Assembly (NCBI GenBank): GCA_949292175.1
Contig: CASEYJ010000003.1
Location: 62,001 to 126,000 of the forward strand
DNA from: an uncultured bacterium
Lineage (GTDB): Bacteria > Cyanobacteriota > Vampirovibrionia > Gastranaerophilales > Gastranaerophilaceae
Direction: 5' to 3'
Length of the DNA: 64,000 nucleotides
Of this stretch, positions 7,270 to 62,409 are shown piece by piece. The notes below the pieces were generated by a model. The model made no database searches and had not been told where the DNA came from. It saw only the letters and a program-made list of their open reading frames with translations. Within the stretch, counting starts at the first letter, position 1, and every line of letters begins with the position of its first letter. Made by a program: the position numbers and the translations under genes.

Positions 7270-7626
7270 ATGTTAAATGCACCCATTCAACCATTAATGT
7301 ACAATAACCCTCAACCTGTACAAAACAACATTCCACCACAACCGGCACCACAGCCAATTGCTCCTCCACAGGACCAGAAAACAATTCTTAGAGAACAAAG
7401 TATGGCAATATCATCAGATATAGCCGCAGAATACGGTGCCACAACAAGACTAAATGATATTTTGGTAGATTTAGCTAAAGCTTTAAAAGAAGAAAAAGAC
7501 CCTGAACAGAAAAAAGTACTCGAAGCAAGAATAAACACAACAAACCAAATGATTTTGCAAAGAGAAATGAAAATAAATCAAATGGAAATGACAAAAGCAC
7601 AAATTGATGCTCAACTCAAACAATAA
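7270..7626 (+). CDS. Unknown small helical protein with a Pro-rich N-terminus
   Basis: A 118-residue protein with no recognised domain. Residues 1-40 are rich in Pro, Gln and Asn; residues 45-118 are charged and predicted as a long helical hairpin or coiled coil (K-A-L-K-E-E-K-D-P-E-Q-K-K-V-L-E-A-R). There is no signal peptide or membrane segment. The ATG at 7270 is chosen over an upstream in-frame start at 7222 because AAAGGAG lies 7 bases before it. It resembles the helical unknowns at 11588 and 17887 in style and may belong to the same lineage-specific set. Confidence 0.7.
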   Translation: MLNAPIQPLMYNNPQPVQNNIPPQPAPQPIAPPQDQKTILREQSMAISSDIAAEYGATTRLNDILVDLAKALKEEKDPEQKKVLEARINTTNQMILQREMKINQMEMTKAQIDAQLKQ

Positions 7627-7660
7627 CTTAAAAAACAATGAATTGAAATAATAAATAAAA

Positions 7661-7680
7661 AAGCCCTTATAAATGGGCTT
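7661..7680. terminator. Bidirectional terminator between convergent genes
   Basis: An AAGCCC/GGGCTT stem has A6 on the left and T6 on the right. It can serve both the plus-strand gene ending at 7626 and the minus-strand gene ending at 7696. Confidence 0.8.
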
Positions 7681-7695
7681 TTTTATTTTATTATA

Positions 7696-8121
7696 TTATT
7701 TATCAGACTTCTTAGATTTGCTGTAATCTATAATTTTATCGGCAACAGCTCCAACACCTAAACCTGCCAAAAGGCCAAGCGCAGCTAATACAAAAGGTAT
7801 GGCTTTAACATTTTTCGAAACCACTCTATACCTCTCTTTTCTAAAAGCTTTTCTTGATAAATCAACATCTTCCAAAACATCTGAAACCGACACATATTGT
7901 CCCATGCCTGTAAAACCGAAATTAAAATGACTGAGAAGGAACTTCTTTAAAGAAAATGATTTCTTTATATTTTTTACGGTACGAACCCCGCAAAATCCAC
8001 CAGCAACAGTTCCAACCCCCATTCCAACATAACTACCAAGATGGGAATTGTTTTTATTTTTTTTACTCGCCTGAGGTTTATTTCCAAGAAATTCAATTGA
8101 ACTTACAGCTTTTACCGACAT
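7696..8121 (-). CDS. Unknown Gly-rich membrane-associated protein, paralogue A, with N-terminal F-x-G tag
   Basis: A 141-residue protein of unknown function, paralogous to the gene just upstream (8147-8545). The two share an N-terminal tag (here S-S-I-E-F-L-G-N-K), a glycine-rich hydrophobic stretch G-M-G-V-G-x4-G (about 33-45), a basic middle, a second hydrophobic segment ending G-L-G-V-G-A-V-A-D-K-I-I, and a Lys/Ser tail ending in D-K. The two glycine-zipper-like segments suggest membrane insertion. AGGA lies upstream of the ATG, 26 bases after the paralogue's stop, so both are probably one transcript. Confidence 0.7.
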   Translation of the reverse strand: MSVKAVSSIEFLGNKPQASKKNKNNSHLGSYVGMGVGTVAGGFCGVRTVKNIKKSFSLKKFLLSHFNFGFTGMGQYVSVSDVLEDVDLSRKAFRKERYRVVSKNVKAIPFVLAALGLLAGLGVGAVADKIIDYSKSKKSDK

Positions 8122-8146
8122 ATTAAGAAAATCCTATCAACTAATT

Positions 8147-8545
8147 TTATTTATCAGCTTTTTTAGCTCTTGTATGATTTATAATTCCATCAACAATAGC
8201 ACCAAGTCCTAAACCTAACAATAAAGCCAGAGAACCGGTAATCACAGGGAACACTTTCATACCTTTTGAAAAAGTTTTTGCAGAAAGTTTGAGATTAGAT
8301 ACATCTAACCCAGCTTTAGCCAATTCTCTCTTGTAAGCAGTTCTAAATGTAACAAGCATTCTTTTCAAAAAAGGTTTATCTTTCTGTGCCTGATGTATAA
8401 AGTATAAAGGATATCCAGCTCCAACAGAAGCACCAACACCCATACCTATATATCTTCCGGCACGAGTTTTCTCATATTCATTACCATTTTTAGTATATGA
8501 CTTTTTACCTGAAAAACTAACCGTATTTACTGCATCAATTGACAT
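8147..8545 (-). CDS. Unknown Gly-rich membrane-associated protein, paralogue B, with N-terminal F-x-G tag
   Basis: A 132-residue relative of 7696-8121. The N-terminus carries the tag N-T-V-S-F-S-G-K-K; then come G-M-G-V-G-A-S-V-G (about 35-43), a basic helical middle and a C-terminal L-G-L-G-A-I-V-D-G-I-I segment with a Lys-rich end. There is no signal peptide of the normal kind, because the N-terminus is polar. It is the first gene of the two-gene unit; TAGGTG precedes the ATG. Glycine-zipper segments in tandem can form membrane channels or oligomers, but nothing in the sequence proves a function. Confidence 0.7.
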   Translation of the reverse strand: MSIDAVNTVSFSGKKSYTKNGNEYEKTRAGRYIGMGVGASVGAGYPLYFIHQAQKDKPFLKRMLVTFRTAYKRELAKAGLDVSNLKLSAKTFSKGMKVFPVITGSLALLLGLGLGAIVDGIINHTRAKKADK

Positions 8546-8641
8546 ATTACACCTACATTTTTACTACACTCAACTATATTAAAAACTAAAAAAGTTATCT
8601 TTTGCATTATTTTGGCTTATTATTAATTTATTGTTACAAAA

Positions 8642-8667
8642 AAGGACGGGATTAAGATCCCGTCCTT
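8642..8667 (-). terminator. Terminator of pgk
   Basis: A perfect 10-bp stem (AAGGACGGGA/TCCCGTCCTT) with a six-base loop, followed on the minus strand by a T-run. It lies 20 bases past the pgk stop. Confidence 0.93.
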
Positions 8668-8687
8668 CAAATTTATATTTTATCAGC

Positions 8688-9890
8688 CTATTTTTCATCT
8701 AGAGCTGCAACACCTGGAAGAACTTTTCCTTCGATGAATTCAAGAGAAGCTCCACCACCTGTTGAAACGTGAGTGAAATCTTCAGCTTTGCAGAATTTCT
8801 TAGCTGCAGAAACAGAATCACCACCGCCGATTACAGATACAGCGCCAGCTTTTGTTGCTTCAACAATTGCATTCAATACTTCTTTAGTACCTTCTGCAAA
8901 TTTAGGATTTTCAAAAGCACCAACAGGACCGTTCATCAAGATTGTTTTTGAAGATTTAATAACATCAGCAAAAGCTTTTCTTGAATCAGGACCAGCATCA
9001 ACGCCTTCAAATCCATCAGGAATTTCGTCAATTTTAACGAATTTGTTAGTTCCGTTGCCAGAGAAATCATCTGCTGCAAGAACATCTGTTGCCATAACAA
9101 GTTTAACACCCTTATCAGCAGCTTTCTTTTCGATAGCCTTAGCAACTTCAATTTGATCATCTTCACAAATTGAGTTACCGATTTTACCACCATTAGCTTT
9201 TACAAATGTATAAGCCATACCACCACCGATAATCATGTTATCAACTTTGTCTAGCAAGTTTTCTAAAACACCGATTTTAGAAGAAACTTTAGCACCACCA
9301 ACAACAGCTGTGAATGGTCTTGTAGGATTATCTAATGCTTGAGATAAGCATCTGATTTCTTTTTCCATCAACAAACCAGCTACTGCAGGTTTCAAAACCT
9401 TAGCCAATTTAGAAGTTGAAGTATGGTTTCTGTGAGCAGCACCGAAAGCATCGTTTACATAGAAATCACCCAACTTAGCTAATTCATTAGCAAAAGTCAT
9501 ATCATCATCTTTAGCTTCTTCAGCCTTGTAGAAACGAATATTTTCCAACAAAGCAATTTGTCCGTCTTTCATACCTTCCAATGCTTTTTCAGCACCTTCA
9601 CCTACAGGTTCAGATACAAATAAAACATCTTCACCAAAAACTTTAGACATATATTTAGCAACAGGAGCTAAAGAGAATTCCATATTCCATTCACCTTTTG
9701 GACGACCAAGGTGAGCCATCAAAATAATTTTAGCGCCTTTGTCTTTCAAAGCTTTTACAGTTGGAACGATAGCTTGAATTCTTGTATCGTCTGTAACATT
9801 TTTGTCTGCGTCAAGAGGAACGTTCACGTCAACTCTTACTAACGCTCTTTTACCCTTAACGTCTCCTAAATCGTTAATTGATTTTTTCAT
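8688..9890 (-). CDS. pgk: Phosphoglycerate kinase
   Basis: A 400-residue, full-length phosphoglycerate kinase, the ATP-forming step converting 1,3-bisphosphoglycerate to 3-phosphoglycerate in glycolysis. Visible signatures are R-V-D-V-N-V-P-L near the start, H-L-G-R-P-K-G, the N-D-A-F-G-A-A-H-R substrate-binding segment, V-G-G-A-K-V and the C-terminal M-N-G-P-V-G-A-F-E and G-G-G-D-S nucleotide-binding loops. The ATG at 9890 is chosen over one at 9914 because it has AAGGAG at ideal distance and matches the family N-terminus. It is a single-gene unit with a strong terminator. Codon use looks like that of a highly expressed gene. Confidence 0.97.
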
Positions 9891-9970
9891 AATTTTCTCC
9901 TTATTTAAAATCACAAAAATCTTTGCATGCCTATTCTACAAAAAACAAAATAGATTAGCAAATAGAAAAA

Positions 9971-9991
9971 AGAGCCATTTTTTATGGCTCT
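9971..9991 (-). terminator. Terminator of the AICAR transformylase-deaminase unit
   Basis: AGAGCCAT/ATGGCTCT stem with a five-T loop; on the minus strand it is followed by T6. It sits 12 bases past the deaminase stop. Confidence 0.85.
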
Positions 9992-10002
9992 TTTATTAAT
10001 AA

Positions 10003-10449
10003 CTAAGCTTCGTTCAATTCTCTACGAATATCTTCAACAGTCACGTGAAGAACCGGAGAATTTTCATCCTTCTTAAGATATACATCTTTAATACCGGATT
10101 GAACTATAAATCTCTTACACAAAATACAGATAAAATTATGTCCCCAAATATACATTGTAGAACCCTTACATCTGTCCTGTCCGGCTTGGATAATTGCATT
10201 TTGTTCAGCGTGAATTGAACGACAAGTTTCATAACAAGTTCCGGATTTAATACCGTGCTCAATTCGATAGCAACTTCCTCTTTCGTAACAAGACTCTACC
10301 TTAGAAGGTGTACCGTTATAGCCTGTTGCCTTAATCTTTTTATCATCACCAACAATAACAGCACCAACTTGTGCTCTTATACAATTTGAACGACTAGCAC
10401 AAGTCTTAGCCAAGTCCAAAAAATAATCTTCCCAGCTTTTTATTTCCAT
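10003..10449 (-). CDS. dCMP deaminase family (cytidine/deoxycytidylate deaminase)
   Basis: A 148-residue zinc-dependent deaminase. The S-I-H-A-E-Q-N-A-I motif supplies one zinc ligand and the catalytic Glu; the second zinc site is C-I-L-C-K, where the usual Pro before the first Cys is replaced by Ile. A Cys-rich insert near residues 54-77 is typical of ComEB-type dCMP deaminases. The likely reaction is dCMP to dUMP, feeding thymidylate synthesis. GAGGT precedes the ATG, and the AICAR transformylase ends only 17 bases upstream, so the two form a nucleotide-metabolism operon. Confidence 0.88.
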   Translation of the reverse strand: MEIKSWEDYFLDLAKTCASRSNCIRAQVGAVIVGDDKKIKATGYNGTPSKVESCYERGSCYRIEHGIKSGTCYETCRSIHAEQNAIIQAGQDRCKGSTMYIWGHNFICILCKRFIVQSGIKDVYLKKDENSPVLHVTVEDIRRELNEA

Positions 10450-10466
10450 ATATTTACCTCTACATA

Positions 10467-11462
10467 CTAGTGTTTATAATTTTTAATTCCTGTGAACACC
10501 ATAGAAATGTTATATCTATCAGCAAGCTCAATCATACTTGCGTCATTAGCAGATCCCCCAGGCTGAATAATCATCCCGATTCTTCCCTGAGCCGCAATTT
10601 GAATACAATCAACAGTAGGAAGAGTATTATCAGAAGCCAATACAGCATCTTTAGAGTTGTCACAAGCCCAATTTACAGCATCTTCAACAGCTGTAAGCGG
10701 AGAAACATGTCCTTGAGCAATTGCTGCGGTTTTAAAGTCCTTGGCAATTACAATAGAATTTGAACGTGCATACTTAGAAATTTTCCAAGCAAATACTGCA
10801 TCTTCAATCTGTTCCTTGGTAGGTTTTTTGTTTGTAACAATCTGGAACGAATTTTTGCCCAATCGACTCTTATTAAAATCTTGATATAAAGTTCCAAAAG
10901 GAGTCACATGAACATCTTTTTGAACAAGAGATTTATAATCTTTAAGAGGGGTATTTACTTTAACAACAGTAATCAAAGGATTATCTCTTAAAAGAGCCAA
11001 TGCTTCAGGATCAAAATCAGGAGCAACTACAAGCTTTACAGACATAGAATTAATATGTTTTGCAATTTCGAAATCAATTTTTTGTGAAGCACCAATAGCT
11101 CCAAAGAAAGAAGCAACAGGGTCACAATCAAAAGCCTTCGTATAAGCTTCATCTAATGTAGCTCCTAAAGCAACAGCACAAGGTGCAGCATGCTTGGTTA
11201 TTGCAACTGCGCAAACATCATAAAATTCACTTAACACATTTGCAATCTCAGTTACAGACATTATTTCATTGTATGATAAAACTTCTTTTCCAACAATTTC
11301 AAAATCTGCCATATTTTCAGATTTAAAAATCATTGCAGGTTGTTGCGGATTTTCACCGTAATTTAGGTGCCACATAGTTTCCAAAACAGTTTCTTTTTCC
11401 AGTTGAAATTCACCAGACTCATTTAGGTTGTCGTAAATTTTTAGTTCTACTCTTTTACTCAT
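10467..11462 (-). CDS. purH: Monofunctional AICAR transformylase (PurH C-terminal domain only)
   Basis: A 331-residue protein matching only the AICAR formyltransferase half of bifunctional PurH, the step using 10-formyl-THF to make FAICAR. Landmarks are N-Y-G-E-N-P-Q-Q, G-K-E-V-L-S-Y-N-E-I, the essential Lys-His pair in A-I-T-K-H-A-A-P-C, F-A-W-K-I-S-K-Y-A-R-S-N, I-I-Q-P-G-G-S and the closing F-T-G-I-K-N-Y-K-H. The IMP cyclohydrolase domain (about 190 residues) is absent, and the usual N-P-C-G becomes A-P-C-A. The ATG at 11462 has AGAGGT upstream; the ATG at 11495 does not. A separate cyclohydrolase would be needed elsewhere. It is followed by the deaminase gene. Confidence 0.88.
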   Translation of the reverse strand: MSKRVELKIYDNLNESGEFQLEKETVLETMWHLNYGENPQQPAMIFKSENMADFEIVGKEVLSYNEIMSVTEIANVLSEFYDVCAVAITKHAAPCAVALGATLDEAYTKAFDCDPVASFFGAIGASQKIDFEIAKHINSMSVKLVVAPDFDPEALALLRDNPLITVVKVNTPLKDYKSLVQKDVHVTPFGTLYQDFNKSRLGKNSFQIVTNKKPTKEQIEDAVFAWKISKYARSNSIVIAKDFKTAAIAQGHVSPLTAVEDAVNWACDNSKDAVLASDNTLPTVDCIQIAAQGRIGMIIQPGGSANDASMIELADRYNISMVFTGIKNYKH

Positions 11463-11587
11463 ATGTTTTACCTCTTTTGTAAACCAATTTAGCATAAAAA
11501 TTTAAACTTGTAAAATTCTTATAGTGTTGAAATAATTTTATGTTCTTTTTATAATGTTTTTGTTCAAATAACAAAGGATTTATAAAA

Positions 11588-12193
11588 ATGAGTAGCAATA
11601 AAATGACAGAAGGCGTAGGCAAAAAGATTGTTGAAGCCCTAAAGCAGCAATCCGATATCGAGATTGTACCGGTAAAAGAACCGGCACCAAACGCAGAACT
11701 TACAAATTTAAGTTCACTAGCACCTCAAAATAGTCTTATTGATGAAATGGTGCTACCGCAAGATGCACCAAAATCCGCATCAACATTTAATTTTACTCCT
11801 AAAAATGAAGATATTGATGCTGCATTATCAAACACTATGATGAATTTTCAAACTCCTGAATCTAATATTCCGGCAGTTGAGGAAATGGAATTACCTGCAA
11901 ACGTTGCAGTTTTGCGCCAATTAATCTCAAAACTTCCGGCTAATGTTTCAAAACAAACAGGAGCATTAATTATAAAGCAGACTATGGAAGCTCTTGGTAT
12001 TTCTATGACAAATGTTTTACAAGAAGCTCAACAAGTTCAAGAAAACTTAACTCAATCTGTAAGAGAATGCCAAACAAATGTTCTTGAACACAAAAAACAA
12101 ATTAATATTTTAGAAGTTCAAGCTCAAAAATATCAACGTCAATTTGCAGCTGTAAACGACATTATCAGCTTGTTCATACAAACAAATAACTAA
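11588..12193 (+). CDS. Unknown protein with a C-terminal coiled coil
   Basis: A 201-residue protein with no recognised domain. Residues 1-105 are acidic, Pro/Asn-rich and probably disordered. Residues 105-201 are helical: R-Q-L-I-S-K-L-P-A-N-V-S-K-Q-T-G-A followed by a Gln-rich coiled coil (Q-E-A-Q-Q-V-Q-E-N-L-T-Q-S-V) to the end. It lacks a signal peptide and membrane helices, so it is likely cytoplasmic, perhaps a scaffold or cell-division/cytoskeletal accessory protein, but this is a guess from shape. AAAGGA stands 8 bases before the ATG. It is transcribed divergently from the purine gene. Confidence 0.7.
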   Translation: MSSNKMTEGVGKKIVEALKQQSDIEIVPVKEPAPNAELTNLSSLAPQNSLIDEMVLPQDAPKSASTFNFTPKNEDIDAALSNTMMNFQTPESNIPAVEEMELPANVAVLRQLISKLPANVSKQTGALIIKQTMEALGISMTNVLQEAQQVQENLTQSVRECQTNVLEHKKQINILEVQAQKYQRQFAAVNDIISLFIQTNN

Positions 12194-42275: not shown

Positions 42276-42467
42276 TTAAATAAACCAAACCAGAACAGCT
42301 GCACTAACGCACATCCAAAAAATAACCCAAGAGAGTGTTTCTTTCTTATTCACAGTCTTCGGAGCACTCTTTGCTTGCTGAACAATAACTTCAAAATCAT
42401 CACTCCCGCAATCGCAGTACTGAACTCTATTTGGGTAAATCTTTTTACAAACTCTACATTTATACAT
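42276..42467 (-). CDS. Zinc-ribbon single-pass membrane protein
   Basis: A 63-residue protein: N-terminal zinc ribbon C-R-V-C-K...Y-C-D-C-G (Cys4, Cys7, Cys18, Cys20), a polar linker, and one C-terminal membrane helix (W-V-I-F-W-M-C-V-S-A-A-V-L-V-W). The tail-anchor layout suggests a small adaptor facing the cytoplasm. There is no ribosome site; a TTGAAA-N17-TAAAAT promoter ends 6 bases before the ATG, so the mRNA is probably leaderless. Function unknown. Confidence 0.75.
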   Translation of the reverse strand: MYKCRVCKKIYPNRVQYCDCGSDDFEVIVQQAKSAPKTVNKKETLSWVIFWMCVSAAVLVWFI

Positions 42468-51099: not shown

Positions 51100-53124
51100 A
51101 GTAAGAAAAAAGTCATTGCATACTTGCACACACATTGGGACAGAGAATGGTATAGAGAATATGAAATTTTCAGACTGAGATTGCTGAGAGTTTTCGACAA
51201 TATACTGGAACTTTTAGAGAATAATAAAATTCCCGCATTTTATTTCGACGGGCAAGTTTCAGCCCTTTTAGATTATCTTGAAATAAGACCTGAAAAAGAA
51301 AATTTAGTAAGGAAATTTATTGCAGAAAAGAAACTGTTCATCGGTCCAAGTTACACTCTTGTTGACGAATTTTTAACCGACAAAAATAGCTTTGAAAAAA
51401 ACTTAGAAACAGGATTAAAAATATCTCGAGACTTTGGCTGTGAGGACTTTATAGGATACCTTGCAGATACATTTGGACACAGCAAAAATATTCCACCTAT
51501 ATTCAAAAAATACGGAATTGACAAGTGTGTTGTATGGAGAGGCTGCAAAGATTTACCATCGGAATTTATTTTCAACGGAATTAAGACTGTTAACCTCGTC
51601 CGTGGCTATTTTATGGACATTTTTTCCGCAAAAATTTCAATTGAAGAAAAAGCAAAATGGCTTGAGGGAAATTTAGACAAAATTGCACAGAATTCAAAAG
51701 ATACCTTACTGCTTCCAATAGGTGCTGATCACCTCGGAGTTGAACCCGATATAGCTGATCAAATAACTCAAGTAAATGCACTTCTTAATAACTACGAGAT
51801 AAAATTATCCACACCTTTTGAATATTTTGAACTTGTAAAGGATAACTTTAATACAACATGGAATGAAGAACTACGAGATAACAGTAAAACTTTTATCCTG
51901 CAAGGATGTTACTCCGCAAGGACCAAGATAAAACAATATAATGCAGAAGCAACATTCAAATTAAATCTTGCTGACACATTTCAACTTCAACTCGGCGCAA
52001 AGTATTGTAAGACAATAGATTACGCATATAAACTTCTATTTCAAAATCAAGCTCATGACGGGATTTGCGGATGTTCAACGGATGAAGTCCATCAAGAAAA
52101 CATAATGCGCTACAAAAAGATTATTCAAATTGCTGAAACAATACTAAAAGAATTAAAGTTCCTATACCCTGAAAAGTTTGATGAACTCTGGATTTCACAC
52201 AACCAAAAGTATCGTTCAACAGTAATAAAAGAGGGCACAAATGTTCCAAATAATTGTCAGGTAATATCGAAACACAGAGGATTTCCTGAGGAAATTCTAT
52301 ATGATACTCAACGAATACCGATAACTGAAGATTACACAAACATATACACTTATGCAGAAGAAATAAACCCATCTAATGATAAGCTAAAAATTTCTGACAC
52401 AGAAATTTCTAATTCTAATATAAAACTAAGTGTGAATAATGAAGAAATAAAAATTTCTAACGGAATTAGCATAGATTTTATCAGATACAAAGACAAAGGG
52501 GACACTTACAATTTCGGGGCAGTCAAAAATGATAAGCCTGAAATTGCAAAAATAATTTCATCTTCTATCCTTATGGATGGAGATTTGCGAGTAGGCCTAA
52601 AAATAAAAACCAGCTTCTTTGACGTAAATATTTATCTTGATAAAAATTCCGAACTTTTACGCTTCAACATAAAGTGGAATAACAGATTAAAGAATCGCTT
52701 ATGGCAAGTCAGATTCAAATTAAAAGATCCGGTTACGAAAACTTACTCTGAGGATATGAATAGCATTCTTATCAGAGAGTTTGACCCTAACTATAACATT
52801 CGGGAACACTTGCCAAAAACACGAGGGATAGAAGCCTGGACAAACACTGCGCCAATGCAGAGATTTGTTGGTACACAAGGTTTTGGAGTTGTAACCAAAG
52901 GGCTTACTGAATATGAAGTTTACAAAAACGCATTATCTTTAACAATATTGCGTTCGACAGGAATAATTTCAAACCCGAAAAATCCTTCACGTTCAACTCC
53001 TGCAGGGCCGCCATTGGAAGTTCCGGAAGCTCAACAATTTGGAGAAAATACAGCAGAATTTGCAATAGGCTTCATCAAGCCGGAAGATTACGAAAAATAC
53101 GTAAATGAATTCTATCTAAGCTAA
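51097..53124 (+). CDS. GH38 alpha-mannosidase-like glycoside hydrolase
   Basis: A 675-residue enzyme of family GH38. The N-terminus H-T-H-W-D-R-E-W (11-18) gives zinc ligands; the nucleophile is Asp124 in L-A-D-T-F-G-H-S; Q-A-H-D-G-I-C-G-C-S is a later ligand motif, and the C-terminal beta domain has R-S-T-G-I-I-S. The family cleaves alpha-mannosides; related archaeal and bacterial members also act on glycerol-mannoside or other small glycans. No signal peptide, so it is cytoplasmic. It lacks a ribosome site, and its promoter is directly at the ATG. The 3' end overlaps the unknown gene at 53116 by 9 bases. Confidence 0.88.
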   Translation: MSKKKVIAYLHTHWDREWYREYEIFRLRLLRVFDNILELLENNKIPAFYFDGQVSALLDYLEIRPEKENLVRKFIAEKKLFIGPSYTLVDEFLTDKNSFEKNLETGLKISRDFGCEDFIGYLADTFGHSKNIPPIFKKYGIDKCVVWRGCKDLPSEFIFNGIKTVNLVRGYFMDIFSAKISIEEKAKWLEGNLDKIAQNSKDTLLLPIGADHLGVEPDIADQITQVNALLNNYEIKLSTPFEYFELVKDNFNTTWNEELRDNSKTFILQGCYSARTKIKQYNAEATFKLNLADTFQLQLGAKYCKTIDYAYKLLFQNQAHDGICGCSTDEVHQENIMRYKKIIQIAETILKELKFLYPEKFDELWISHNQKYRSTVIKEGTNVPNNCQVISKHRGFPEEILYDTQRIPITEDYTNIYTYAEEINPSNDKLKISDTEISNSNIKLSVNNEEIKISNGISIDFIRYKDKGDTYNFGAVKNDKPEIAKIISSSILMDGDLRVGLKIKTSFFDVNIYLDKNSELLRFNIKWNNRLKNRLWQVRFKLKDPVTKTYSEDMNSILIREFDPNYNIREHLPKTRGIEAWTNTAPMQRFVGTQGFGVVTKGLTEYEVYKNALSLTILRSTGIISNPKNPSRSTPAGPPLEVPEAQQFGENTAEFAIGFIKPEDYEKYVNEFYLS

Positions 53125-54387
53125 GCCTTTTTCAGCTCTGCGCTTTTTCAACTCATCCGTATCAACAACCAATGTAGAGTCTTTTACGTCAGTTTCACCT
53201 GTCTTAGATGAAGCGGTTTTAACCTCTTCACTCTTCTTGTTTTCATCTTCGGTATTCGCTAAATCATTATTATTAGTAGTATCACCGGACTCATCAGTTT
53301 GACCATTCGGCTGTTCAGCTGCTGCCCTTGGAACTTGAATACCTTCAACTCCGGTATTGCCTTCCACTCGGGATTGAGCATCACCTAAATGTGTAAACTT
53401 CTCATCAAGCTCGGACTTTGCGTAATCCAGCGCTGCAACTCCGTTAGCCCCTGCCTCCATAGCATGTCCGCCGTCTTTAATAGAATTAATTCCCATTCTA
53501 TAATTTCTATTAAATAACATTGAGAACAATTTGAGTTTTGTAGCGTTCATAGCAACTTTTGCGGTATTTATACCATTAGAATTATTTGCAGCTTCTGTAA
53601 TCTTCGCCTGCTGATTTGCATCATCGGTAACAAGCTCTGCACCAATAGCAACTGTTTCCGTACCAAAATCTGTCGCAGTAGCAGGAATTGCCTCAAACTG
53701 CTGCATTTCAACATCTAATTCAGCCAACTGGGTTCCAATCTGAGCAAGATCTGCCTGCGCTTCAGTTCCAATTGAAGTCAAAATTCCACCAAGTTCTGCA
53801 ATTCTATTCAAATCTGCAGGTGATAAACTTTGATCATTACTTTGAGCTTTTGCAAGAAGATTATCAAGTTCCTGCTTCATTGAAGAAGTTTTCTTTTCAG
53901 TAGCCCTTGCCTTAACTTCAATAACCATATTAGTAGCTTCGCTCATTTGAGTAATTTGATCAAGACGAGTCTCCATCGCCTCTTCAGATTTTGTTGCACT
54001 CTTACTTTGATTAGATAATGCCTTTGCCTGCTCATACTTGCTCTCACCACTAAGTTCCATACTCTGTCTGAACTGTTGGGCTTGTGTCATCGTAACCTTT
54101 GATGCAGCATCCTCAGCATCAGGTTCATCAGACTGTGAATTTTCATCATTAATCTCATCAGTAGTAGAAGCTCCGTTTACAGACGCATACGTCACATCAT
54201 CCGGAATATCCTGAAGCTTATTAACTTCCTCAGCCCAACGTTTAATCTCCTCAGGGACATCTTCGCCCTGATTCATATATTGAAGAATTTGACTTGGAGT
54301 AAGCTTTTCCCAAGCTATATCCTCATTTTTCTTCTTTTGCATATACGTTTTTGTAGCCAAATTTATAGAACTTACAGCTTCAACCAT
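53116..54387 (-). CDS. Unknown 423-residue helical, acidic protein
   Basis: A soluble protein with no signal peptide and no known domain. It opens M-V-E-A-V-S-S-I-N-L, like other small proteins of this lineage, then has a piece T-P-S-Q-I-L-Q-Y-M-N-Q-G, an acidic spacer (E-N-S-Q-S-D-E-P-D-A-E-D), and helical coiled-coil regions (E-T-R-L-D-Q-I-T-Q-M, A-Q-I-G-T-Q-L-A-E-L-D). The last 80 residues are Asn/Thr/Glu-rich and end in D-E-L-K-K-R-R-A-E-K. It recalls the 997-residue protein at 31419 in composition. AAGGAG precedes the ATG. The 3' ends of this gene and the GH38 gene overlap. Confidence 0.7.
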   Translation of the reverse strand: MVEAVSSINLATKTYMQKKKNEDIAWEKLTPSQILQYMNQGEDVPEEIKRWAEEVNKLQDIPDDVTYASVNGASTTDEINDENSQSDEPDAEDAASKVTMTQAQQFRQSMELSGESKYEQAKALSNQSKSATKSEEAMETRLDQITQMSEATNMVIEVKARATEKKTSSMKQELDNLLAKAQSNDQSLSPADLNRIAELGGILTSIGTEAQADLAQIGTQLAELDVEMQQFEAIPATATDFGTETVAIGAELVTDDANQQAKITEAANNSNGINTAKVAMNATKLKLFSMLFNRNYRMGINSIKDGGHAMEAGANGVAALDYAKSELDEKFTHLGDAQSRVEGNTGVEGIQVPRAAAEQPNGQTDESGDTTNNNDLANTEDENKKSEEVKTASSKTGETDVKDSTLVVDTDELKKRRAEKGLA

Positions 54388-54564: not shown

Positions 54565-54741
54565 ATGGCTAAGACAATTTTATTACCAAACACTGTAACT
54601 GATATGTATAAAAACACTTCAAAAGCTATTAGTGAAGTTGATTTGTCAGGCAAACACATTATAAGAAAGTCTTTGGTCGAAATAATGAAACAATCTTTCT
54701 TCCACGGAGCAAATTTATACGGAAATAACTTTATAGCTTAG
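54565..54741 (+). CDS. Unknown 58-residue protein
   Basis: A small gene with GAGAGGT 6 bases before the ATG. The protein starts M-A-K-T-I-L-L-P-N-T-V-T-D-M-Y-K and is mixed polar/hydrophobic, with a late F-F-H-G-A-N-L-Y-G-N-N-F. No family recognised. A good terminator (54790-54811) follows. It and the next unknown gene are small plus-strand units between unrelated genes. Confidence 0.6.
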   Translation: MAKTILLPNTVTDMYKNTSKAISEVDLSGKHIIRKSLVEIMKQSFFHGANLYGNNFIA

Positions 54742-54789: not shown

Positions 54790-54811
54790 CTGCCGGCCAA
54801 TACAAGCCGGC
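54790..54811 (+). terminator. Terminator of the 58-residue protein gene
   Basis: TGCCGGC/GCCGGCA with an 8-base loop and T5 tail. Confidence 0.9.
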
Positions 54812-54899
54812 ATTTTTATTACAAATTGTAACAGGAACGTTTAAAATTTTATATACTTGGGTATATATATAGTATATATTAATTGGAGGAGTAAGAGCA

Positions 54900-55235
54900 A
54901 TGTCAATGAACGTATCTGCAATGAGCGGAATAGCATCAGGAATGATGATTGATAGTGAGCACCAGAGAATTATGCGTGAACTTCGTGCTATGGGGATTGA
55001 ACCTACCGGAGATAAAAGCACAGACAAAGCAAAACTTGAAGCTGCAAAACAAACAAAACAAGCTCAATATAACCAAATACAATTTGTTAGCGAAACAGAA
55101 AAAACAGATAAAGCACCTGCTCAATCATCACAAGACAACATTAAAAATGATACCTCTATACAAGCTCAAAATATGACCGGTGCAACTCAAATTGCAGAAT
55201 TAAACAAATACAAAATTCTTGGTCTGTTTTCTTAA
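54900..55235 (+). CDS. Unknown 111-residue protein
   Basis: A soluble protein starting M-S-M-N-V-S-A-M-S-G-I-A-S-G-M-M. The first 60 residues are helical (H-Q-R-I-M-R-E-L-R-A-M-G-I-E-P-T-G-D), the rest Gln/Lys/Ala-rich with Gln repeats. The R-E-L-R-A-M-G-I-x-P-T-G-D piece resembles small helix-hairpin modules. No known function. A strong GGAGGAG site lies before the ATG. It converges with the TonB-like gene, overlapping by 4 bases. Confidence 0.65.
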   Translation: MSMNVSAMSGIASGMMIDSEHQRIMRELRAMGIEPTGDKSTDKAKLEAAKQTKQAQYNQIQFVSETEKTDKAPAQSSQDNIKNDTSIQAQNMTGATQIAELNKYKILGLFS

Positions 55236-56104
55236 AATGATTGAACGTACTCAAAATCCTTAAAATCATCAGGTGATGAAAATTGTTCATAATCACTCAT
55301 CAAGAAACCACCTGAAAAATTAACAGACTTTCTGCGCGTTCCTTGTGGAAATGTTAGTATATCATTACCATTCAACGTTATAATTGTTGAACGGATAGAA
55401 TTAATCTCAGTATCCATATCAGGTCTTGTTGATATAACCTTCACTTTAGAGATACGCTTATCACTATCAACCTTAAACGAGAAGAAGAAAAACGTACCAT
55501 AAGGTGCATCAACTGTGGACTGCTCCATTATTGTATTTTGAAGATCACTTCTCCATTTATTCCAAGCAATTAACTCAGCACGTAATTTAGGATTCTTAAG
55601 TTGATCACAAATTGAACAAGTTGAAGGATCTTCTTCAGCTTCAGAACTATTTGCATCTGATGTCGGTTTATCCTTAACCTTCTTAACCTCTTGCTGAGAT
55701 TCCGTTTTTGGAAGGAAATCTGTATTCAACATCTTTTCAACTTGTTCCAAAACCTTGTCACTATTATTCACATTCTGCGCAGGTTGAGTACTGTGATTTT
55801 GAGTACCGGCAACAGGCACCTGTTGAATAAAATCAGATGGAATAATTTTAACATCCGAAGGAATTATCGGAGTCTCAGCACTAACCGGAATAGGAGGCTT
55901 TGGAGCTTCTGAAATTTGGACTGGAGCTTCCCCAAGCCTAAACAAAGGAACACTTTGCAAATCTGCAGGTCTCTGACTCAAATTACTTATCTTAAAATCA
56001 GGATTTGTAAGTATAAACTGTTTATGCACATCAGGTTTTACCGTGGCAAAAATCACAGTCAAAACCAAAATTGTTATTGCTACAAATACAGTTAAAATTC
56101 TCAT
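55232..56104 (-). CDS. TonB/TolA-like periplasmic protein
   Basis: A 290-residue protein. Residues 4-22 form a membrane anchor, followed by a Pro/Ser/Lys-rich periplasm-spanning linker (about 60-150), a C-S-I-C pair at ~163, and a C-terminal domain (about 180-290) with W-N-K-W-R-S-D-L and P-Y-G-T-F-F-F-F-S-F-K-V-D-S-D-K-R-I-S-K. The layout fits TonB/TolA energy or envelope-bridging proteins. TonB family members need ExbB/ExbD, which are not here; a partner in the same operon may replace them. It begins 2 bases after the FHA-like gene, without a clear ribosome site, so translation is likely coupled. Confidence 0.72.
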   Translation of the reverse strand: MRILTVFVAITILVLTVIFATVKPDVHKQFILTNPDFKISNLSQRPADLQSVPLFRLGEAPVQISEAPKPPIPVSAETPIIPSDVKIIPSDFIQQVPVAGTQNHSTQPAQNVNNSDKVLEQVEKMLNTDFLPKTESQQEVKKVKDKPTSDANSSEAEEDPSTCSICDQLKNPKLRAELIAWNKWRSDLQNTIMEQSTVDAPYGTFFFFSFKVDSDKRISKVKVISTRPDMDTEINSIRSTIITLNGNDILTFPQGTRRKSVNFSGGFLMSDYEQFSSPDDFKDFEYVQSF

Positions 56105-56106
56105 AA

Positions 56107-57714
56107 TTAATCTTTATCAATCTTCGCAATTAACTCATCACAAGCCCAAACCTCAAAACGAGTCTGAGAAAGCATCAAAGTCTCGGCAATCAATAGTGCT
56201 GTTGGAACGAGTGCTGCAATAACACTTAGCATTACACCTTTAAAGTCTCCGCCTGTTTCACTCATAAAGTATGATACGTTCATCATAAACTCGATGAAAA
56301 TAATAACGCATGCAATACTAAAGAACAATCTTCTGTCTGACTCAAGTTTTCTTGTTCCTTCAAGCCCATAGATAGAAACACCGTGTTGACGATAATCAGT
56401 AAATCCATCCTGCTTGATGACTTGAGAACCTTGAATTTTCTTACTTGTTAAAAACGCACTAACAAAAGAAAAGAATGCAAAAATAATCAAAAATGTTGCA
56501 AGTCCTAAGAACACAGGACTAAATCTCAACCCGGAAATTCTTACCCAACCTGCAGCCTCAGGGAAACACATTGCAAGAGTATTAGAAACACCATAAGCCA
56601 ACAAAGGTGCTGTTAAAATACCAATTACAATTTCTCCAAAAGACTTCAATTGAAGCATAAACATTCTATCTTTTATATTATTGATTTTTGAATTGCTTAA
56701 AGAATTTACGAACCTGTCAATCCATACACGATAAGACTTCAATACAGTTTCAAAATCTTCTCTAAATTCATACTTATTAAGCACTGCGCTATATTCTGTA
56801 CTATTATTTTTAAAATAACCGCATCCTATTGCCAAAGCCGTCATTATACCAACGAAGAAAAATGTTATAAAAATAGAAAACGCTACAAAATTACTCAATG
56901 ACATAAAGTAAATTTGGTTGACAACATAAATCCCGATTATAAAAATAATTGAGCCCCACAACATAAAATTCTGGGCCAAAGTTGCAGTCATAGATTGTTT
57001 AACAGTTTTACTCTGTAAATAAAGAAATACACCCTGCTTCAACATAAGGCATATAGAAAATACGACAAAAGAATACGCAATCCATGCCTGAATATTAGTA
57101 GCAAGATATACATGCTTTGAAGCTTCTTGAGTAGAAAGTCCCATCAAATAATTTGCAACCGCAAATGAACTTAATATGGATGTTATGTAAAGCGCAATAT
57201 GCAAAAACAAACTTGCTCTTGTTGCAGACATAATCTTACTTTTTAGCTCTGATATAGGATAAGCAATCTGTTTTACAATAGCTATTCTAGCTTTTTCAAG
57301 TGGAGCTCGTGATTTTTCGAGCTTAACCTTTGCAATAACTCCGGGGTCATCTCCATATAAATCTTTTAACTGAGCATCCGAAAGATTTACGATATCGACA
57401 GAACCCATATCAATAATCCCGCTTGAATCTACATGGATTTCAATAAAATCATTACTATTGTTCAAAGCCAATCGACAAACTTTATCAACCTTCATTCTGG
57501 TCAAAACCTGACCTTTAAATAACACATTCTGATTTTTAAAGTTATTTGAAACAAAACACTCACCGGTGTCTTTATTCGTCTGGACAGTAATAATTACATC
57601 AAAACCAGGCTGTAAGACATAATCACACTTAGGATTTGTTCCAATATTTATCAAACTTTTATTTTTAAATTGTTTTTCACCAGATAATGATTTTATCGTA
57701 ATAGTAGCCGTCAT
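56107..57714 (-). CDS. FHA-like domain fused to a polytopic membrane protein
   Basis: A 535-residue protein. Residues 1-95 look FHA-like (L-I-N-I-G-T-N-P-K-C-D-Y-V-L...L-F-K-G-Q-V-L-T), but the phosphothreonine-binding G-R, S-R-x-H and N-G residues are missing or changed. From about 165 on there are about eight membrane helices with a cytoplasmic or periplasmic 80-residue loop around 305-350. Middle protein of a three-gene unit: it starts 11 bases before the end of the vWA gene region (AAAGGA site) and the TonB-like gene follows by 2 bases. No match to a named transporter was seen. Confidence 0.65.
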   Translation of the reverse strand: MTATITIKSLSGEKQFKNKSLINIGTNPKCDYVLQPGFDVIITVQTNKDTGECFVSNNFKNQNVLFKGQVLTRMKVDKVCRLALNNSNDFIEIHVDSSGIIDMGSVDIVNLSDAQLKDLYGDDPGVIAKVKLEKSRAPLEKARIAIVKQIAYPISELKSKIMSATRASLFLHIALYITSILSSFAVANYLMGLSTQEASKHVYLATNIQAWIAYSFVVFSICLMLKQGVFLYLQSKTVKQSMTATLAQNFMLWGSIIFIIGIYVVNQIYFMSLSNFVAFSIFITFFFVGIMTALAIGCGYFKNNSTEYSAVLNKYEFREDFETVLKSYRVWIDRFVNSLSNSKINNIKDRMFMLQLKSFGEIVIGILTAPLLAYGVSNTLAMCFPEAAGWVRISGLRFSPVFLGLATFLIIFAFFSFVSAFLTSKKIQGSQVIKQDGFTDYRQHGVSIYGLEGTRKLESDRRLFFSIACVIIFIEFMMNVSYFMSETGGDFKGVMLSVIAALVPTALLIAETLMLSQTRFEVWACDELIAKIDKD

Positions 57715-57724
57715 ATAAAGTTCC

Positions 57725-58393
57725 TTATCTTTCTAGCGCATGTATAAACTGTCTGATTGCTTTATCGCAATTTTGTTTTGGAGAAACAATAAGTTTCATC
57801 TCACCCAAAACCGGAGTCAAAGTTTCTTTAACCAAATCTAACTTTTCCGGATGTGCATACAAAAACATCATAGCAAGATCTGGAGCCTTACTCTTAACCC
57901 TTCTAACGTCAGAAGGCAGAGTATTCCAGTTAATCTGCTTATCAGATTCACCTTCATTTTCAAGATCTCCGATTACAACAACGGCAGGCATATAACCTAA
58001 CTTTTTCATTTCTAATGAATAGTTAAGCGCCTTTCGCATTCCAACCCCATAAGCAGTTCCATAATCTTTTTCGTCATATGCTGTAAACGCATTCATAACT
58101 TTGTTTATATTTGACCCGTTAAAAGGTGCACCCTCATATATTAGGTAAGCATCCTCTGAAACTCTGATAATTTTAATTTTATCTTCCGGATCAAGCAGGT
58201 TACAAATCTGTTTCAAAAGTTTCTTCTGTTCAGGCAAATCTTTCTGGTTAGATGCCGAAGAATCTACCACAAACATAACCGCAGCGGGTCTAAAATTATC
58301 AACCTTTATCTTTGTTACCCCGCTCCATACCAATTTCAATATAATAGAAACTGCAAGTATAACTATACCAAGTATTATAAGTCTTTTATTCAT
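57725..58393 (-). CDS. Membrane-anchored von Willebrand factor A domain protein
   Basis: A 222-residue protein with one N-terminal membrane helix (about 5-25) and a vWA domain. The MIDAS motif D-S-S-A-S (Asp44, Ser46, Ser48) is intact, and V-V-I-G-D-L-E-N-E-G-E gives the third acidic site; so a metal-dependent ligand-binding function is plausible. It is the first gene of the operon with the FHA-like and TonB-like genes. Similar vWA proteins pair with MoxR ATPases (absent here). A promoter TTGCGA-N17-TATTAT precedes it. Outer/periplasmic topology is inferred. Confidence 0.78.
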   Translation of the reverse strand: MNKRLIILGIVILAVSIILKLVWSGVTKIKVDNFRPAAVMFVVDSSASNQKDLPEQKKLLKQICNLLDPEDKIKIIRVSEDAYLIYEGAPFNGSNINKVMNAFTAYDEKDYGTAYGVGMRKALNYSLEMKKLGYMPAVVVIGDLENEGESDKQINWNTLPSDVRRVKSKAPDLAMMFLYAHPEKLDLVKETLTPVLGEMKLIVSPKQNCDKAIRQFIHALER

Positions 58394-58411
58394 AAGCCAA
58401 CTTTCTACTGC

Positions 58412-58440
58412 ATAATACCATATTTTACAAACTTTCGCAA
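58412..58440 (-). promoter_or_regulatory. Promoter of the vWA operon
   Basis: Minus strand: TTGCGA (58435-58440), 17 bases, TATTAT (58412-58417). It gives a leader of about 12 bases. It lies back to back with the plsY promoter. Confidence 0.55.
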
Positions 58441-58442
58441 TA

Positions 58443-58472
58443 TTGCTATTATAAAAGAGATTATGTTATAAT
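58443..58472 (+). promoter_or_regulatory. Promoter of plsY (extended -10)
   Basis: TTGCTA (58443-58448), 18-base spacer, TGT-TATAAT (TATAAT at 58467-58472). The leader before plsY is about 30 bases. Confidence 0.65.
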
Positions 58473-58507
58473 ACCATACGTCATTAAAATTAGATTAGGG
58501 AGAAATC

Positions 58508-59110
58508 ATGGAATTATTGGAAGTTATTTTAACAATAGTTGTTGCATATTTAATAGGTTCAATTCCAACAGGATACATTATAGTAAAAACAGCCACCGGC
58601 CAAGATATTAGAGAAATTGGCTCAGGCTCTACCGGAGCTACTAATGTAAAAAGAGTAATGGGGAAAAAATGGTTTTTCATAACTCTTTTATTAGATGCTC
58701 TTAAAGGCGCAACTCCGGTAATTTTGGCAAAAGTATTTGCAAGTGCATTCGCAACAATCGGCTTGCTCCCTGTACTTGCAGCAGTTGCAGTTATTTTAGG
58801 CCACTCAAAATCAATTTTCCTAAAATTTACAGGAGGAAAATCCGTTGCGTCAGGAGTTGGAACAATCCTTGCACTAAACTGGCAGGTTGGATTAATCATA
58901 GCAGTTATATGGTCTATCATAACTTACACTTCAAAGTATGTTTCTCTTGGATCAATAATAGCACTTGCGATTGCTCCATTTGTAATGTACTTTTTAGACA
59001 GCCACATTGCATACACAGGTTATTGTGCTTTAGGTGCAATTTATATCATATGGTTGCACAGATCTAACATCCAAAGACTTCTAAAGGGAGAAGAAAATAA
59101 AGTAAGATAG
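58508..59110 (+). CDS. plsY: Glycerol-3-phosphate acyltransferase PlsY
   Basis: A 200-residue, five-helix membrane enzyme transferring acyl from acyl-phosphate to glycerol-3-phosphate, the first step of phospholipid synthesis. Motifs: S-I-P-T-G-Y-I near residue 18, the G-S-G-S-T-G-A-T-N loop (about 38-46), L-G-H-S-K-S-I-F-L-K-F-T-G-G-K-S-V-A-S-G-V-G. It has AGGGAGA before the ATG and is divergent from the vWA operon. Confidence 0.95.
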   Translation: MELLEVILTIVVAYLIGSIPTGYIIVKTATGQDIREIGSGSTGATNVKRVMGKKWFFITLLLDALKGATPVILAKVFASAFATIGLLPVLAAVAVILGHSKSIFLKFTGGKSVASGVGTILALNWQVGLIIAVIWSIITYTSKYVSLGSIIALAIAPFVMYFLDSHIAYTGYCALGAIYIIWLHRSNIQRLLKGEENKVR

Positions 59111-60976: not shown

Positions 60977-62409
60977 TGCGAAAATTACTAATCGGGATAG
61001 GATTATTGATGAGCTTATCAATCGGAACTGCAATTGCAGCACCGCTTCCTGATAATGTTCAAAATTTTGTTAAATCTACATTTCCCGATACGAATTTTCG
61101 CTTTGATGGAGTCGTAATTTTACCTGATAATACGGTATATCTTCCGTTGATACCATCAAAATTCAATGATGACAGCGACCTTAAAATAAAGAGTACAATT
61201 CCTTCAGGTCAAAGTCTTGCACAAAAACCTGACGCCATTATATTAAGTAATGACTACGTTCTTTTAAAAATGCTAACAAATAGCAAAGGAAAAAATACAG
61301 TGGTTAATCTTCCAATACCTCCACTGGAATTAAGAACAGGGTTATTACCACAAGATATGCTTGTTCCAAAGAATTTTATTGTCCCTGCAAACTTAAAGAG
61401 CATTATTGGAAACTTAAATATAACAACAACACAAGAAACCGGATTAATAATTCCAGTTTCGCAGCCAAAAGGTGGAGCAGCTGTTGTGAACTCACTTGCA
61501 GAGACTCCTCAGTTAAAAGACAAAGTATATTACGTAACAACAAATCTTACAAAAAATATTCAAGTTGTAAGTCCTGAAAAAAAAGTTGCAAGCTACGCAC
61601 TTTATCAAGAAAATACACCAATAACGATAAAGGGCTATCAAGATTTCTTGCTGGTAACATCTTATGGAAAAAAATCCGTAGATGTAATATCACTTGCAGA
61701 TGAGAAAGTTATTAAAGAAATTTCATTCAAAACACAACCTGACGAAATCGTGATTGATGAAAAGAATAAAATTGCCTACATTTCAAGCGGTGAAGATGCA
61801 AGTATGTATGTAGTCGATCTTGATACAATGACAATAAAGAAACAATTACGTCTGAATGGAATGTGTGAAAAAATTACACTTAGTGAAGATGGAACAAAGT
61901 TATTCTACAACGACAAACAAACAAGAGAAATTTGGGCAGTAGAACTTGATAATAACTATTTGCTCAAAGAAATAGGCCGTTTCCCAAATGTTTCTAAAAT
62001 AGCCTACGCAAACGGTAAAGTATACGTTACAAGCAGAACTAAAAATCGTCTTGCTATCATAGACTACGAAACAATGGGTCTAATGTCAGAAAATGAAATT
62101 TCTGAAAAACCTGTTGATATGTTTATTTATAAAAATGACTTATTCATCCTTGGCGCAGGTAACAAAACAATTGATGTTATAGACACAACAATAGATACAA
62201 GAACAAACACTATTGAACTTACTTCAAACATTTTTCCTACAAAAATAACACAAGTTGGGAAAACAAATATTGCACTTGTAACAGATGCAAGAGCAAATTG
62301 TTACAGCATTATAAATCTCGATAAGAAAACCGTTATTAAAACAAATCAATTGGAAACTCCTGTAAATTCAATACTTGTTACAAATAAAATTAAGAAGATA
62401 GGCAAATGA
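60976..62409 (+). CDS. Secreted beta-propeller (YVTN-like) protein
   Basis: A 477-residue protein with a signal peptide (1-22; A-I-A-A-P site). The first ~180 residues are an unknown, repeat-poor domain (S-T-F-P-D-T-N-F-R-F-D-G-V-V-I-L-P-D); from ~190 on there are repeated blades such as S-Y-G-K-K-S-V-D-V-I-S-L-A-D and V-Y-V-T-S-R-T-K-N-R-L-A-I-I-D-Y, the pattern of YVTN/lactonase-like propellers. Such proteins lie in the periplasm or on the surface and bind partners. Its ATG overlaps the dnaJ stop, and the following gene starts 4 bases before its own stop. Confidence 0.72.
   Translation: MRKLLIGIGLLMSLSIGTAIAAPLPDNVQNFVKSTFPDTNFRFDGVVILPDNTVYLPLIPSKFNDDSDLKIKSTIPSGQSLAQKPDAIILSNDYVLLKMLTNSKGKNTVVNLPIPPLELRTGLLPQDMLVPKNFIVPANLKSIIGNLNITTTQETGLIIPVSQPKGGAAVVNSLAETPQLKDKVYYVTTNLTKNIQVVSPEKKVASYALYQENTPITIKGYQDFLLVTSYGKKSVDVISLADEKVIKEISFKTQPDEIVIDEKNKIAYISSGEDASMYVVDLDTMTIKKQLRLNGMCEKITLSEDGTKLFYNDKQTREIWAVELDNNYLLKEIGRFPNVSKIAYANGKVYVTSRTKNRLAIIDYETMGLMSENEISEKPVDMFIYKNDLFILGAGNKTIDVIDTTIDTRTNTIELTSNIFPTKITQVGKTNIALVTDARANCYSIINLDKKTVIKTNQLETPVNSILVTNKIKKIGK

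Follow-up and report, generated by a model that had tools for sequence, protein, structure and literature searches.

A conserved operon in gut Gastranaerophilales links a vWA protein and an FHA-headed membrane protein to a TonB/TolA-like arm: a candidate Ton/Tol-type trans-envelope module

We analyzed a 64,000-nucleotide stretch of DNA (here, the window; positions 62,001 to 126,000 of contig CASEYJ010000003.1, assembly GCA_949292175.1) and, within it, a three-gene operon on the minus strand (window positions 55232 to 58393) encoding a vWA protein, a polytopic membrane protein headed by an FHA domain and a TonB/TolA-like protein (TON) (Table 1). The genome is a metagenome-assembled genome (MAG) of the Gastranaerophilales (1.63 Mb in 17 contigs, ca. 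90% complete, which applies to every assembly-wide search given below), and its closest named relatives are “Candidatus Gastranaerophilales” MAGs, gut Melainabacteria. Gastranaerophilales are gut bacteria, non-photosynthetic relatives of cyanobacteria. Melainabacteria have been inferred to possess a Gram-negative envelope, including an outer membrane (PMC3787301). The initial annotation had described three tightly packed genes for a membrane-anchored vWA protein with an intact metal ion-dependent adhesion site (MIDAS), a polytopic protein with a degenerate FHA-like head and a TonB/TolA-like protein with a long linker, with no ExbBD, MoxR or secretion ATPase nearby, and all of these points were borne out. 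The open reading frames were found as described, with intergenic gaps of 10 and 2 bases. No ExbB or ExbD gene lies near the operon, the only ExbB (PF01618) match of the genome being in a separate Ton operon on another contig (C12). No MoxR gene is adjacent and no match in the assembly exceeded the cut-off (the best AAA_3 match, below it, is on another contig), and there is no secretion ATPase near the operon.

The FHA-headed protein was modeled with AlphaFold2 from 36 sequences (mean predicted local distance difference test [pLDDT] score of 82.4). Residues 1 to 98 were predicted as an FHA fold whose top solved match was FHA-1 of Rv1747 (6ccd; Z, 13.1; root mean square deviation, 2.2; 94 residues aligned), followed by a long helix (residues 124 to 191) and about eight predicted membrane helices. 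An invariant loop, CFPEAAGWVRISGLRFSP, lies on the predicted periplasmic side. In canonical FHA domains, a phosphothreonine-binding Arg follows a conserved Gly; here, that position was occupied by Ser, Thr or Asn in 36/36 sequences. Judged by its modeled fold, the head is a true but degenerate FHA domain and, because the Arg has been lost in every sequence, it probably does not bind phosphopeptides. The assembly contained no Pkinase match, which argues against a role of the head in phospho-signalling. Rv1747 (an FHA-FHA-ABC transporter) and the ring proteins SctD/YscD of type III secretion are likewise membrane proteins with a cytosolic FHA fold at the N terminus, but the protein studied here has several membrane helices and lacks the ABC ATPase, the periplasmic ring domains and the phosphothreonine-binding Arg. 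As a whole, it belongs to no Pfam family and had no credible distant match in Pfam, NCBIfam or PDB sequences, and a fold search with the complete model gave no clear match for the membrane part, the match list being filled by the FHA domain. A phage origin was considered and rejected (0 matches in 50,697 phage records).

The vWA protein matched the Pfam family VWA_2 at 7e-08, above the curated cut-off, and the MIDAS residues (DxSxS...T...D; D44, S46, S48, T113 and D143) were each kept in 33 to 34 of 34 homologues. A vWA protein partnered with an FHA protein recalls ArnA/ArnB of Sulfolobus (PMC6509490), which has no membrane or TonB parts. Similarly, a membrane-associated (BatA-like) vWA protein is a feature of the MoxR-vWA and TerY-P types of systems. 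Unlike in these systems and ArnA/ArnB, no MoxR ATPase, kinase or phosphatase is linked here, and the vWA protein is membrane anchored and tied to a TonB-like protein.

TON consists of an N-terminal membrane helix, followed by a PxxHK motif, a Pro-rich disordered linker and a C-terminal domain (residues 172 to 270), with a CxxCD motif (C163 to C166) just before the latter. No sequence profile detected this domain as a member of the TonB/TolA family. It was predicted with pLDDT values of >90, and its structural matches were almost without exception TolA domain III and TonB C-terminal domains (Z from 8.8 to 5.0), with the TolA domain III structure 1lr0 (Z, 8.8) as the best. This match and the long periplasmic linker are shared with Tol-Pal, but the operon has no tolQ, tolR, tolB or pal; none of these was identified, as far as neighbours could be identified, beside the 37 relatives' loci described below, and no genome-wide search was made.

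We compared 37 loci of relatives, with protein identities of ca. 40 to 90%. The vWA gene was directly upstream of the FHA-headed gene in 35/37, and TON or f3, a second gene for a TonB-like protein, was directly downstream in 36/37, with typical gaps of 9 to 14 and −1 to 6 bases, respectively. The three kinds of genes were linked at 34 to 36 of the 37 loci, far beyond chance, so the synteny that the initial annotation had proposed as a check was kept; neither a lack of conserved linkage nor an assignment of the genes to known unrelated families was found. A profile search detected the FHA-headed protein in 138 of 289 genomes of the class, all from the window's own taxonomic family (f1), at least four of these matches being solitary 99-amino-acid (aa) FHA domains in genus g39. 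The protein is also present in one incomplete genome assigned to taxonomic family f6. A weak match in taxonomic family f3 (G041, 9.9e-4) vanished with the profile and was discarded. The g39 matches (ca. 1e-22) were rejected as instances of the operon: in these genomes (loci L089 to L092), the solitary homologue of the FHA head adjoins an MFS/EmrA-like/OprM-like efflux cluster.

In most relatives, the operon is fuller, with the order f4-vWA-FHA-TON-f3, often preceded by the small gene f8 (five to six genes in total). The product of f8, a protein of ca. 90 aa with a single membrane helix, is similar to the N-terminal segment of TON (2e-09). In two relatives, f8 neighbours suspected by eye to be AsmA-like gave no Pfam match. 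f4 encodes a secreted protein of 230 to 440 aa that weakly resembles TrbI/VirB10, and f3 a protein with an N-terminal zinc ribbon, a membrane helix, a linker and a TonB-like C-terminal domain homologous to that of TON (5.6e-06). In a tree of the FHA-headed protein, the window copy fell within a group linked to plsY, while earlier branches keep both f4 and f3, or f3 alone; the two genes were lost at the operon in the window's genus, where all but one of the reduced TON proteins carry the new CxxCD motif.

The natural variants were consistent with a single module. At two loci without TON, f3 sits directly after the FHA-headed gene, and at two loci without the operon vWA gene, genes for secreted vWA proteins (f7) lie alongside, one at one locus and four at the other, leaving the FHA-headed protein followed by a TonB-like protein as the constant core. 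These f7 genes occur in tandem sets of up to four, oriented divergently to the operon (L045:2900-7439 and others), including where the operon vWA is missing, and often adjoin the full operon. Together with the intact MIDAS of the operon vWA protein, they would fit a system for adhesion or surface display, with the vWA domain as the ligand-binding adhesin. We consider this very improbable, since the operon vWA protein is small and held by its N-terminal helix, its MIDAS face is part of a conserved module that includes a TonB-like arm, and the operon encodes no surface anchor or export path.

The fuller operon can be tied to the genome's own Ton operon on C12, which has the order f4-like, TonB (403 aa, PF13103), ExbB, ExbD, ExbD. 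The f4 family of the studied operon is homologous to the f4-like protein of the Ton operon (hhalign, 1.1e-35 over 185 columns), and the C-terminal domain of f3 is homologous to the genome's TonB (2.6e-06; f3 matched PF13103 at 0.0012). Across the order, f4 followed by TonB recurs in genomes of taxonomic families f1 to f7, and ExbB comes next at every locus where the retrieved DNA extends that far. By these homologies and that of TON, the studied operon has its outer and shaft components in common with a Ton operon driven by ExbBD, the difference lying in the inner-membrane part. Given the f4 homology, a Ton-derived variant is a better description of it than a complex with no relation to Ton. 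The SxxxH motif couples the TonB membrane helix to ExbB. It is absent from the membrane helices of TON (0/34) and f3 (0/20), in keeping with the differing inner-membrane part, while the genome's own TonB has SVAVH. The f4-like protein of the C12 operon is secreted, weakly TrbI-like and has a Gly-zipper, and a 993-aa repetitive secreted protein follows that operon.

The likeness to TonB-ExbB-ExbD comprises a protein that spans the periplasm from a single N-terminal membrane helix and ends in a TonB-type C-terminal domain, a gene of the f4 family immediately upstream in each layout and the homology of f3 to TonB. The differences are the vWA and FHA-headed proteins in place of ExbB and ExbD and the missing SxxxH. 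In addition, the assembly had no match to the plug domain of TonB-dependent receptors (PF07715), which argues against classical import; the outer partner may be of another kind.

The reading that we favor, and hold to be about evenly poised between right and wrong, is that the operon encodes a trans-envelope module of the Ton/Tol type, with the vWA and FHA-headed proteins standing in for ExbB/ExbD, that is, holding the genomic place that these have in the genome's own homologous Ton operon. The FHA-headed protein would be an inner-membrane protein whose head faces the cytosol. Next to it, TON (together with f3 in relatives) would be anchored and span the periplasm by means of its linker and TolA/TonB-type C-terminal domain, and its outer partner would most likely be the secreted TrbI-like f4 or, in the window genome, the Ton-operon homologue of f4. 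The membrane-anchored vWA protein, probably periplasmic, may use the metal site of its MIDAS to bind a ligand or the complex, and may gate or organize the latter. The initial annotation had suggested a force- or signal-transmitting device across the envelope. With the operon and domains confirmed, this is still the most economical interpretation, but the fuller five- or six-gene operon, f4, f3 and the tie to the Ton operon had been missed.

Several points weigh against this module. If energization of the ExbBD type defines a Ton-like system, the absence of SxxxH means that Ton-likeness is not demonstrated, and the FHA-headed protein as a diverged ExbB was rejected, there being no sequence similarity. 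The likeness of f4 to TrbI is weak (8/20 members at E values of up to 0.1; best, 7.6e-06) and, for the member shown, under the Pfam cut-off (20.8 bits versus 35). The window copy itself is a reduced form with neither f4 nor f3 beside it. Charges around the vWA membrane helix (ca. 2.2 K/R before and ca. 2.9 after) leave its orientation ambiguous. Finally, that the vWA, FHA-headed and TON proteins form a single complex is something we infer from the genes, as are the topology, energy source and cargo or signal.

The same genomic placement and the missing ExbB-coupling motif of TON and f3 would also suit an FHA-headed protein that is itself a new ion-driven motor energizing them, a functional analogue of ExbB/ExbD. 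Two glutamates, E361 at the cytosolic end of a predicted membrane helix and E475 in the strongest part of helix 7 (VIIFIEFMMN), were identical in the 36 sequences, and E511 was conserved in nearly all of them; the two invariant residues make such a motor possible. However, acids in the membrane can be structural, the protein has no similarity to ExbB, and the whole-model fold search, dominated by the FHA domain, named no fold for the membrane part, so we regard the motor as unlikely. Bolder still would be a fourth kind of energy transducer across the envelope, in addition to Ton, Tol and Mot, with a TonB/TolA-type shaft, an unrelated FHA-headed polytopic inner-membrane motor with conserved membrane glutamates, a MIDAS vWA gate and, as outer partner, a TrbI/VirB10-like protein rather than a TonB-dependent receptor. 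We consider this distinctly unlikely; a categorically new transducer has a smaller chance than a variant of a Ton/Tol-type system.

A head without the phosphothreonine-binding Arg in an assembly without a Pkinase match, a cytosolic zinc ribbon contributed by f3 and no obvious import cargo, given the lack of a plug domain, could instead suggest a scaffold. The TonB/TolA-like arm would then be a passive tether or sensor that joins the inner and outer membranes or senses the state of the envelope, with the FHA and vWA scaffolds relaying the signal to cytosolic partners and no energy input. We see this as a lesser though real possibility, because the membrane helices and polar residues are conserved beyond the needs of a tether and the kinship with an operon linked to ExbBD speaks for work over scaffolding.

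Table 1. Features of the studied locus and of the related Ton operon (window positions unless another contig is given)
Feature	Position	Strand	Description
vWA protein	57725-58393	-	222 aa; N-terminal signal-anchor helix and one vWA domain
FHA-headed polytopic membrane protein	56107-57714	-	535 aa
TON, TonB/TolA-like protein	55232-56104	-	290 aa
Divergent intergenic region, operon/plsY	58394-58507	.	114 bases
plsY-like gene (acyl-phosphate:glycerol-3-phosphate acyltransferase)	58508-59110	+	Named from sequence
Orphan N-terminal half of f3	42276-42467	-	63 aa; zinc ribbon (CxxC...CxC) and membrane helix
D423	53116-54387	-	423 aa
58-aa gene	~54565-54741	+	58 aa
Terminator-like stem	54791-54812		TGCCGGC...GCCGGCA; between f11/D423 and E111
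E111	54900-55235	+	111 aa
Ton operon	L082 (C12:66000-82000), 7424-11695	-	f4-like secreted protein directly before TonB-ExbB-ExbD-ExbD

Around the operon, the plsY-like gene is a conserved divergent neighbour in the lineage of the window copy and is probably not part of the system. The region between them is the probable, putative promoter region of the operon; matches to promoter consensus sequences within it were at chance level. The 63-aa orphan is the only f3-like N terminus in the window genome, and we consider it a possible displaced partner of the operon; the matching TonB_2 half is a separate gene of 160 aa on contig C4. In the place of f3, the window's genus has three genes conserved beside the operon (423, 111 and 58 aa in the window), with no families detected and no signal peptide evident. 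Two of them, with characteristic repeated termini, could encode proteins that are secreted or structural. D423 was rejected as a displaced f3, since the two formed distinct sequence families in clustering and had no features in common. The stem listed in Table 1 is perfectly symmetric and scores on both strands. Approximately 5 kb from the operon, four plsY-linked relatives (L056:13764-15932, L057:2309-4507, L059 and L060) have a gene that joins an MlaA domain (PF04333, ca. 1e-42; Pfam was run on the first two only) and an alpha/beta hydrolase-like domain. A link to outer-membrane lipid homeostasis is possible.

Like the initial annotation, we can point to no named system of this layout: we found no description of a vWA/FHA-polytopic/TonB-like gene set in open papers, and none of the systems compared fits, MoxR-vWA systems having an ATPase, and Ton and Tol having ExbBD or TolQR and no vWA or FHA parts. 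To our knowledge, every TonB- or TolA-type arm described so far is held to have ExbB/ExbD or TolQ/TolR as its motor. Here, a widespread animal-gut lineage appears to retain the arm and its associated secreted protein, with genes for a vWA protein and a membrane protein headed by FHA in exchange for those of the motor. Were this so, such arms could either run on a different motor or function without one, and the gene set, with its natural deletions, offers a concrete case for asking how the arm is driven. Along similar lines, the TrbI-like f4 family, linked to TonB-ExbB throughout the order, may be an overlooked outer partner of Ton systems in bacteria that lack TonB-dependent receptors.

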